From contig JAGFMI010000001.1 of assembly GCA_021030905.1 (NCBI GenBank), positions 1,426,001 through 1,490,000 on the forward strand: DNA of 64,000 nt. Direction: 5' to 3'. Source of the stretch: Pyrenula massariospora. Lineage: Eukaryota > Ascomycota > Eurotiomycetes > Pyrenulales > Pyrenulaceae. The notes beneath the pieces are model-generated. The model had not been told where the DNA came from. It saw only the letters and a program-made list of their open reading frames with translations, and did not search any database. This document shows, in pieces, positions 51,624 through 54,842 of this stretch. Position numbers and translations under genes: made by a program. Position 1 is the stretch's first letter; each line of letters starts with the position of its first letter.

Positions 51624-52419
<796 letters not shown>

Positions 52420-52838
52420 TGTAAATGTGTTGTGAGTTGCGAGAAGGTGTTGGCGAGGTTAGGAGTAAAGTAAGTGGGACAAAAGTGGGCTGAGCGGCAG
52501 GCGGTGTTAGTAGCGAGGCCAACCTAATCCTGAGATATACACACACTTTCTGTGTACCAATAGACGCTCCGACGGATTTCAAAGATATTATGAAGACCAG
52601 TGAAATTTTCTGACCCAGGAATTCGTGAACACCGCTGATGCTTTGTGTCGAAGTTGTTGGAATCGAAAAGTCAAAGGTTGATGGGTCACTTGGTAATGGC
52701 GGCATGACTGATAGTGATGCTAGGCTTCAAGGACCTTAGTGGCTTGGCGGGCGGCGAAGCCTAGAGCTCACCTCAATTGCAGCTCCTCCATCAACATCAC
52801 CACCACCGTCTCTTCATTTCATCCTTGGAAGACCAACC
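52420..52838. promoter_or_regulatory. Divergent promoter region of UBC4 (minus) and ATP8 (plus)
   Basis: 419 bp separate the two start codons, so both promoters and 5' UTRs must lie here. I did not find a TATA box I would trust. CT-rich stretches with several CCACC/CATCA blocks precede the ATP8 start (52780-52830). Confidence 0.5.
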
Positions 52839-53279
52839 ATGTCTTCTTCTCGCCTCCTTCGGCCTCTTACCCGGGTAGCTCAGCGTCAGCCCTTTGTGGC
52901 ACGCTCGGTCAATCGACCAGTGTTTGCACTTGCTATGAGCACCCAAACTCCTAAGCAACTTGTCCAGTCGAAACCTTCAGTGCAACCACAAGCGAAGACA
53001 TCAGAGCAATCCACAAGTCTGGCCAAGACGGCTACAATAGCCCATAGAAAGGATGTGGCAACGGTGAGGAATATGTAATGTTAACTACCTGATATGGCTA
53101 ATACTTGTTGCTAGACTCGTTTGCATACTGCCATGCCTCAGCTCGTTCCTTTCTTTTTCGTCAATGAAACCGTCGCCAATTTCAGCGCACTTGTTATTCT
53201 AATCTACTTCATGTCGAAATACGCCCTACCAAACAAGCTTCGCATATTCCTGGCCCGCCTTTTCATTAGCAAGCTATAG
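52839..53279 (+). CDS. ATP8: Nuclear-encoded ATP synthase subunit 8 with mitochondrial presequence (129 aa)
   Basis: Subunit 8 of the F1Fo-ATP synthase Fo sector, normally encoded by mitochondrial DNA. Two exons: 52839..53063 (75 codons) and 53115..53279 (54 codons plus stop), with a 51-bp intron (GTGAGG...TTGCTAG) between codons. Exon 2 encodes a six-residue linker, then a complete 48-residue ATP8. It opens MPQLVPFFFVNE, has one membrane span and ends ARLFISKL; both ends are the family signature. Exon 1 encodes an Arg-rich N-terminus without acidic residues for about 55 residues (MSSSRLLRPLTRVAQRQ, VARSVNRP), as in matrix-targeting presequences, then a Gln/Ser/Lys linker. It reads in the standard code and is spliced, so it is not a recent mtDNA insertion (NUMT). 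Convergent with the acyl-CoA dehydrogenase gene. Confidence 0.88.
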
Positions 53280-53453
53280 CAACTGGGATCGTCTTGCCCG
53301 CGAGAGCAAATTGGTGGGAATCAATACCCCGGAGCACGCACCCCCGGCCCAACTCTGTTGCTTTTGTCCAGCATTCAAGGGCAGAAAATAACGGACGTCA
53401 TATTTACTATGTACAGTGTTGGCAAGGATTAGATTATCTAAAACACAAAGCCT

Positions 53454-54842
53454 TTAACAAAATGCTTGGATCCCTGTGATGGCTCGTCCCAAAATTAATG
53501 CTGTGAAATTAGTCAACTTAAGACGCCCCCGTTTCATGCGTGGTTTTTACTCACCATGGATGTCACTTTGCCCTTCATAAGTCTGCGTCACGAACAAGTT
53601 CGCAACGTGTCTACCGATGTGATACTCGTCACTGACCGCGTTTCCACCAAAAACCTCCTGCAGTATTCTCGAGTTGACCAAAGCCCTGTCACAGTTCTGT
53701 CGTTTGATCATTGATATCATCTCTGGGGCAGCTTTTCCTTCATCCTTCAGACGGCCGACTTGGTTTGCCGCCAGGATGCCGTACGCAGCATCGGTTACGG
53801 CATCAGAAAGTTTCTTTTGCACCAATTGGTACTTCGCTATTGGATTGTTCTTGAATTGCTTCCTTTCCATGGCATATGTCCTGGTCCTCTCAATACAGTC
53901 CTCTAATGCTCCTATCACTCCCCACGCTATACCATAACGGGCTGAATTCAGACAGCTGAATGGTCCTTTCAACCCTTCCACTTCTGGAAACATGTTCGCT
54001 TCTGGTACGGGGCACTCGTCGAGCTGAATCATACCGGTAATGGAGGCTCGGAGCCCATTTTTGTGCTTCAATGGTGGAGTTTCTAGTGTCCCCGGCGGAC
54101 ACTCATCGCGCTCTATCACAAACCCTCGAATCTTCCCTGTACTTTGAAGCTTAGCCCATACCAGCATGACATCTGCAATCGGCGAGTTCGTGATCCATGT
54201 CTTAGCTCCTGAAAGCGAAAAGTATCCTTTCTTGCTGGGGTGCGGTTTGGCCACGCTTTCCATGGATCCAGGATCGGACCCGTGATTTGGTTCGGTCAGT
54301 CCAAAGCATCCTATTTTCTTACCCTTGGCCAATGGAGGCAAGAATTTCTGCTTCAGCTCTTCTGATCCGAACTCCTCGATCCCTCCCATGACCAGCGAGC
54401 TCTGAACAGACATGCCTGATCTGTAGCCCGAATCTACTCTTTCAACTTCGCGAGTAATCAGCCCAGATGCTACGCTGCTCACGCCGGCGCAGCCGTAGCC
54501 CTGGATTGTAGCCCCTAACAAACCAAGCTCACCCATCTCTTCTAGAATTTTCTTGTCATAGTCTTCATCCCGGTATGCGTCTATACATACACTCAGTCTT
54601 GTACTTTTAGCACCAACCTTGACCTACTGACCTAATACCCTTGGCAGCATCTGTTCTTGACAGTACGAGTGTGCGGTTTCTTGTATGGCGAGCTCTTCTT
54701 CAGTGAATAGAGACGTTGAGTTCAAAGGATCTTCCCAATTAAAAGTTGCAGGTGCATGAGCAAACCGTCGAGCTTCGTAACGCAACGGTGCTTTTATTCT
54801 ACAAGCTCTTGAAGCAGCTCGTAGGAGAGGATTTCGTATCAT
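53454..54842 (-). CDS. Mitochondrial acyl-CoA dehydrogenase, glutaryl-CoA dehydrogenase-like (427 aa)
   Basis: FAD enzyme predicted to oxidise and decarboxylate glutaryl-CoA to crotonyl-CoA in lysine/tryptophan breakdown. Three exons: 54842..54632, 54580..53555, 53500..53454. The Arg-rich N-terminus (MIRNPLLRAASRACRIK...RYEARRFAH) looks like a mitochondrial presequence. Acyl-CoA dehydrogenase motifs follow: CFGLTEPNHGSDPGSM (FAD/substrate), YFSLSGAKTWITNSPIADV, the C-terminal helical domain RKQFKNNPIAKYQLVQKKL, then QEVFGGNAVSDEYHIGRHVANL. The catalytic Glu sits in TYEGQSDIHG. The short last exon adds ALILGRAITGIQAF, the typical GCDH ending, joined inside the DIHA codon. ARYGIAWG and the conserved Arg favour GCDH over other acyl-CoA dehydrogenases. 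The first in-frame ATG is at 54842. Confidence 0.9.

Follow-up and report, generated by a model that had tools for sequence, protein, structure and literature searches.

We find that Pyrenula massariospora carries a complete gene for ATP synthase subunit 8 (atp8) in its nuclear genome, and we propose, at a probability of roughly nine in ten, that it is a working gene which arose by an old functional transfer from mitochondrion to nucleus and whose product would be imported by means of a cleaved presequence. Many relatives keep atp8 in their mitochondrial DNA (mtDNA). The gene lies at 52839-53279 on the plus strand of the window, by which we mean the whole 64-kb stretch of DNA analysed, and translation together with an enumeration of splice choices gives two exons and a 129-residue product. 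The coordinates, lengths and intron placement set out in an earlier note on this DNA, which had drawn attention to the gene, came out the same when derived again in this way. The features of the locus are as follows.

51624..52419 (approximate), minus strand: multi-exon gene for a ubiquitin-conjugating enzyme, divergent upstream neighbour (PF00179 on 51767-52009; other exon pieces by eye)
52839..53063, plus strand: exon 1 of atp8, 75 codons, an Arg-rich leader and likely mitochondrial presequence (translation, splice enumeration, whole-genome search)
53064..53114, plus strand: phase-0 spliceosomal intron, 51 bp, GTGAGG...TGCTAG with a branch-like GCTAAT (frame-keeping splice enumeration, motif scan)
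53115..53132, plus strand: first six codons of exon 2 (TRLHTA), still part of the leader, with a putative cleavage site at R77-L78
53133..53279, plus strand: full ATP8 coding part, 48 residues and stop (PF05933 E 2.4e-18, yeast Atp8 identity)
53547..54536, minus strand: gene for an acyl-CoA dehydrogenase, convergent downstream neighbour (PF02771, PF02770, PF00441; a long open frame, more exons possible)

The intron sits between codons, six codons 5' of the ATP8 start, and exon 2 (53115-53279) comprises 54 codons and a TAG stop, reading TRLHTA and then the 48 residues MPQLVPFFFVNE...ARLFISKL. When GT-AG introns of 40-200 bases were enumerated, 13 choices kept the frame, five of which keep the whole of ATP8; among these five, the GTGAGG...TGCTAG intron is in our judgement the best formed, with the most canonical donor. 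Its GCTAAT, close to the 3' splice site, is one of four branch-like matches. Over the 64-kb window, Rfam and ARAGORN returned no matches. The ubiquitin-conjugating enzyme gene and atp8 start about 420 bp apart and point away from each other, and the stretch between them (window 52420-52838) may serve as a shared promoter.

Judged by sequence similarity, residues 82-129 are ATP8 at a level far beyond chance. The PF05933 profile matches them over its full length (positions 1-48 of 48) at E 2.4e-18 and 66.5 bits, against a curated cut-off of 26.1, and a gapless alignment with yeast Atp8 (PDB 6b2z) gives identity at 23 of 48 residues. Window ATP8 and yeast Atp8 have in common the conserved MPQLVPF start and a basic tail ending RLFISKL. 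The idea that the locus encodes a full 48-residue ATP8 is thus upheld by a complete domain and by the yeast alignment. Across the 37.8-Mb, 33-contig assembly, PF05933 yields a single match at E <= 10, the gene at 52839-53279; this is the fungal model, chosen after the general ATP-synt_8 model (PF00895) gave no match in the assembly, and it produced one below-cut-off match among 14 prokaryote controls, where PF00895 produced none. Relatives of exon 2 were also sought by pattern in a viral and a prokaryotic contig collection, with 40 and 236 matches respectively, none of which was confirmed as a relative.

The assembly also contains two contigs of partial mtDNA. C25 (23,950 bp, GC 0.25) was reached via COX1 matches, and C26 (15,175 bp, a near-perfect palindrome that is partly N) via PF00361. 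Table-4 frames read by eye place a partial nad5, nad4L, cox1-cox2, cox3, atp9 with a further partial copy, nad1 and atp6 on C25, and nad4 and nad6 on C26. Cytochrome b has no match in the assembly, and the PF00361 matches are confined to the two arms of a single nad4 frame, the truncated nad5 of C25 being missed; the mitochondrial genome is therefore incompletely represented. The earlier note had proposed looking for atp8 in the mtDNA of the same species, and on these partial contigs we find none. On C25 the DNA upstream of atp6 contains no atp8-like frame, and a profile run with all filters off recovered the atp8 of the window but gave no convincing match on either contig, the profile having been built from window ATP8 and yeast Atp8, with no independent mitochondrial positive control. 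Apart from the window gene, the profile scored better than E 0.1 only on C26 (11.8 bits, E 0.014, in both palindrome arms); this match was rejected as chance, as its frame has 28 residues and its surroundings resemble small-subunit rRNA by eye. Mitochondrial atp8 has likely been lost.

As part of the mtDNA is unassembled, a second functional atp8 might lie there, in which case the species would be at an intermediate stage with copies in both nucleus and mitochondrion. However, the usual place of atp8 in ascomycete mtDNAs is next to atp6, according to excerpts of two papers (PMC4366305; for Mycosphaerellaceae, PMC7999263), which is not the arrangement here, and the reports of Pleosporales and Macrophomina mtDNAs, in the portions drawn on, list no atp8. 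We regard two functional copies as very unlikely, and we infer that atp8 is absent from the unassembled mtDNA as well.

Several further observations concern these contigs. On C25, the end of cox1 continues without a stop into cox2 (C25:1463-3148, by eye), as in Stemphylium, and this gene pair occurs in Dothideomycetes, of which it may be typical (PMC4366305, in excerpt). The palindrome of C26 (C26:1902-15175) is 99.9% identical over 13.3 kb and reflects either an artefact of the assembly or a genuinely inverted form of the mtDNA. The nad4 frame of C26 (C26:2272-4464, 731 residues) runs past the expected end of nad4, its added tail containing CPIC...CYKC, and another frame, at C25:12979-13323, has a Cys-rich ending similar to that tail; both are possible zinc-ribbon extensions.

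C25 carries an intact atp9 frame at C25:16880-17134, and the lack of mitochondrial atp9 seen in Pleosporales is thus not found here. A partial, rearranged second copy lies at C25:13264-13635, its pieces 88% and 94% identical, near a cox3-like fragment. PF00137 gave eight matches, two of them on C25 and six nuclear, in pairs on C18, C19 and C32. The nuclear six were rejected as atp9 because they read by eye as V-ATPase proteolipids, and for this reason atp9 appears to be mitochondrial only.

The atp8 locus has a nuclear composition as well as nuclear neighbours. GC3 is 0.56 in exon 2 and 0.45 in exon 1, with 0.54 in the adjacent acyl-CoA dehydrogenase gene and 0.12 and 0.19 in mitochondrial atp6 and atp9; TTA accounts for none of nine Leu codons in exon 2, for 32 of 40 in atp6 and for 6 of 12 in atp9. 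When the window was compared with C25 and C26, four short matches appeared at E <= 1, the best two at E 0.37, and relative to these two contigs the locus shows no mtDNA-like sequence or flanks. A 32-bp stretch just 3' of atp8 (53427-53458) that is 81% identical to C25 (E 0.37) is taken as chance. Together with the single PF05933 match, these values argue for an old transfer rather than a fresh NUMT, and the intron, alongside the codon usage, also points to an old event. A NUMT whose upstream reading frame is fortuitous, with the real atp8 still in the mtDNA, could appeal to the 32-bp stretch and to the partial state of the assembled mtDNA, with its N in C26 and no match for cytochrome b; but it would have to accommodate an uninterrupted, full-length PF05933 domain, splice sites that join ATP8 in frame with an Arg-rich leader, a nuclear GC3 with no TTA Leu codons in exon 2, a best match to C25 and C26 of only E 0.37, and a mitochondrial atp6 with no atp8 upstream. 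We consider it extremely unlikely. The same evidence, from gene model and single match to neighbours, codon usage and atp6, agrees with the earlier note in reading the locus as a nuclear ATP8 gene rather than a NUMT.

Upstream of ATP8, the product has an 81-residue leader that is Arg-rich and, from its composition and hydrophobic moment, is likely a mitochondrial targeting extension. Residues 1-55 include six Arg, three Lys and no acids, and the first acids of the product fall at residues 56 and 72 and then at 93, inside ATP8. The best 18-residue hydrophobic moment is 0.67 (residues 5-22). Of 5000 shuffles of residues 2-56, each offering 38 window starts where the real sequence offers 40, 54 reached this value. 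An Arg-rich, acid-free N-terminus of about 55 residues had been described before as resembling a mitochondrial presequence, and the nine basic residues, amphipathicity and lack of acids agree with that description. Eight R-x sites are candidates for processing, R22-S23 and R77-L78 included. The short N-terminus of Atp8 faces the intermembrane space, and cleavage of the leader near R77-L78 seems likeliest for that reason.

We propose that the cytosol makes a 129-residue precursor, whose Arg-rich, amphipathic N-terminus would carry it through TOM/TIM23. One or more matrix proteases would then cut off the leader, perhaps near R77-L78, leaving an ATP8 of 48 residues to be inserted into the membrane part of the ATP synthase next to Atp6, which the mtDNA itself encodes. 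The earlier note had further suggested that the membrane span is less hydrophobic than in mtDNA-encoded ATP8, which would ease import. The best 19-residue Kyte-Doolittle mean is indeed lower than in yeast (1.62 vs 2.41), but yeast is the sole comparison and a distant one, and the difference cannot show an adaptation to import. For nuclear expression of yeast Atp8, a targeting sequence and adjustment of the code were enough, as stated in an excerpt of PMC3420929.

How the leader arose bears on the exon layout. Exon 1 had been read as the import signal and exon 2 as the transferred gene; the intron does part most of the leader from ATP8, but six leader codons remain in exon 2. Compatible with the anatomy, and with an old functional transfer, is the capture of the leader as an exon from a gene for a mitochondrial protein, rather than its growth from upstream sequence, and a phase-0 intron near the ATP8 start that splits most of the leader from its passenger speaks for this. 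Against it count the six leader codons in exon 2, the fact that a later insertion could also explain the intron, and the results of the donor search that had been suggested with exon 1. Run on this genome, that search found no donor gene; the whole-genome comparison returned exon 1 itself and one match on C21 (37% over 43 residues), rejected as noise at E 1.11. No other match rose above noise, but presequences diverge fast, and a donor may have escaped such a search. We hold exon capture to be a tentative proposal, somewhat less likely than not.

Nuclear atp8 has been described in other ascomycetes, in papers known to us from excerpts. Stemphylium lycopersici has nuclear atp8 (TW65_04673) and atp9 with TargetP-predicted leaders (PMC5626475). 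It resembles the present case in a nuclear ATP8 with a predicted targeting extension, in mtDNA without atp8 (here, C25 and C26) and in a single cox1-cox2 frame, and differs in that atp9 is nuclear there and lies on an mtDNA contig here. Both atp8 and atp9 are stated to be nuclear for Pseudoshiraia (PMC11881002), and PMC7272585 cites the same for Pyrenophora tritici-repentis; in both, nuclear atp8 is shared with P. massariospora and nuclear atp9 is not, and the excerpts describe no presequence for either. The transfer proposed in the earlier note stands as an event, but it is less new than implied, the S. lycopersici case having been printed in 2017.

Absence of atp8 from mtDNA is also on record in the excerpted literature. 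It was missing from 9 of 20 fungal mitochondrial genomes analysed (PMC7225605), neither atp8 nor atp9 was detected in reported Pleosporales mtDNAs (PMC11167856), and loss outside ascomycetes is given for three Conidiobolus species (PMC8632527). Neofusicoccum parvum has atp9, and in the set of that study only M. graminicola has atp8 and atp9 together (PMC4366305). The mitochondrial genes of Macrophomina phaseolina include atp6 and atp9, not atp8, in the portion of PMC8451660 drawn on, the tree legend of which nonetheless gives atp8 as one of the genes used across 15 species. These Botryosphaeriales, with atp9 present and atp8 not listed, show the mitochondrial state seen here and not that of Pleosporales. 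In the limited collection of literature searched, and in its excerpted text, we found no description of nuclear atp8 in Botryosphaeriales. Nuclear expression of yeast ATP8 and of Podospora ATP9 has been achieved experimentally (PMC3420929, in excerpt); yeast ATP8, recoded and given a targeting sequence, is functional when expressed from the nucleus, but that gene was engineered, whereas the present one is natural.

With nuclear atp8 and mitochondrial atp9 in one assembly, transfer looks stepwise. We suggest, as a proposal evenly poised between right and wrong, that this genome is an intermediate of that process, with atp8 already nuclear behind its own leader and atp9 still mitochondrial; and that, if the leader and intron position are common to Pleosporales, a single transfer of atp8 took place before that order diverged from its relatives, atp9 having moved later and separately. 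The phenomenon as such has been published before, and what P. massariospora adds is nuclear atp8 alongside mitochondrial atp9 in a single assembly, the gain over published cases lying in detail and in taxon range. It offers a natural case of an organelle gene for a membrane protein that resides in the nucleus with an apparent import tag and an exon layout that is still legible. Taken together with homologues from related orders, the gene could date the transfer of atp8, place it in order relative to that of atp9, and probe the origins of import signals.
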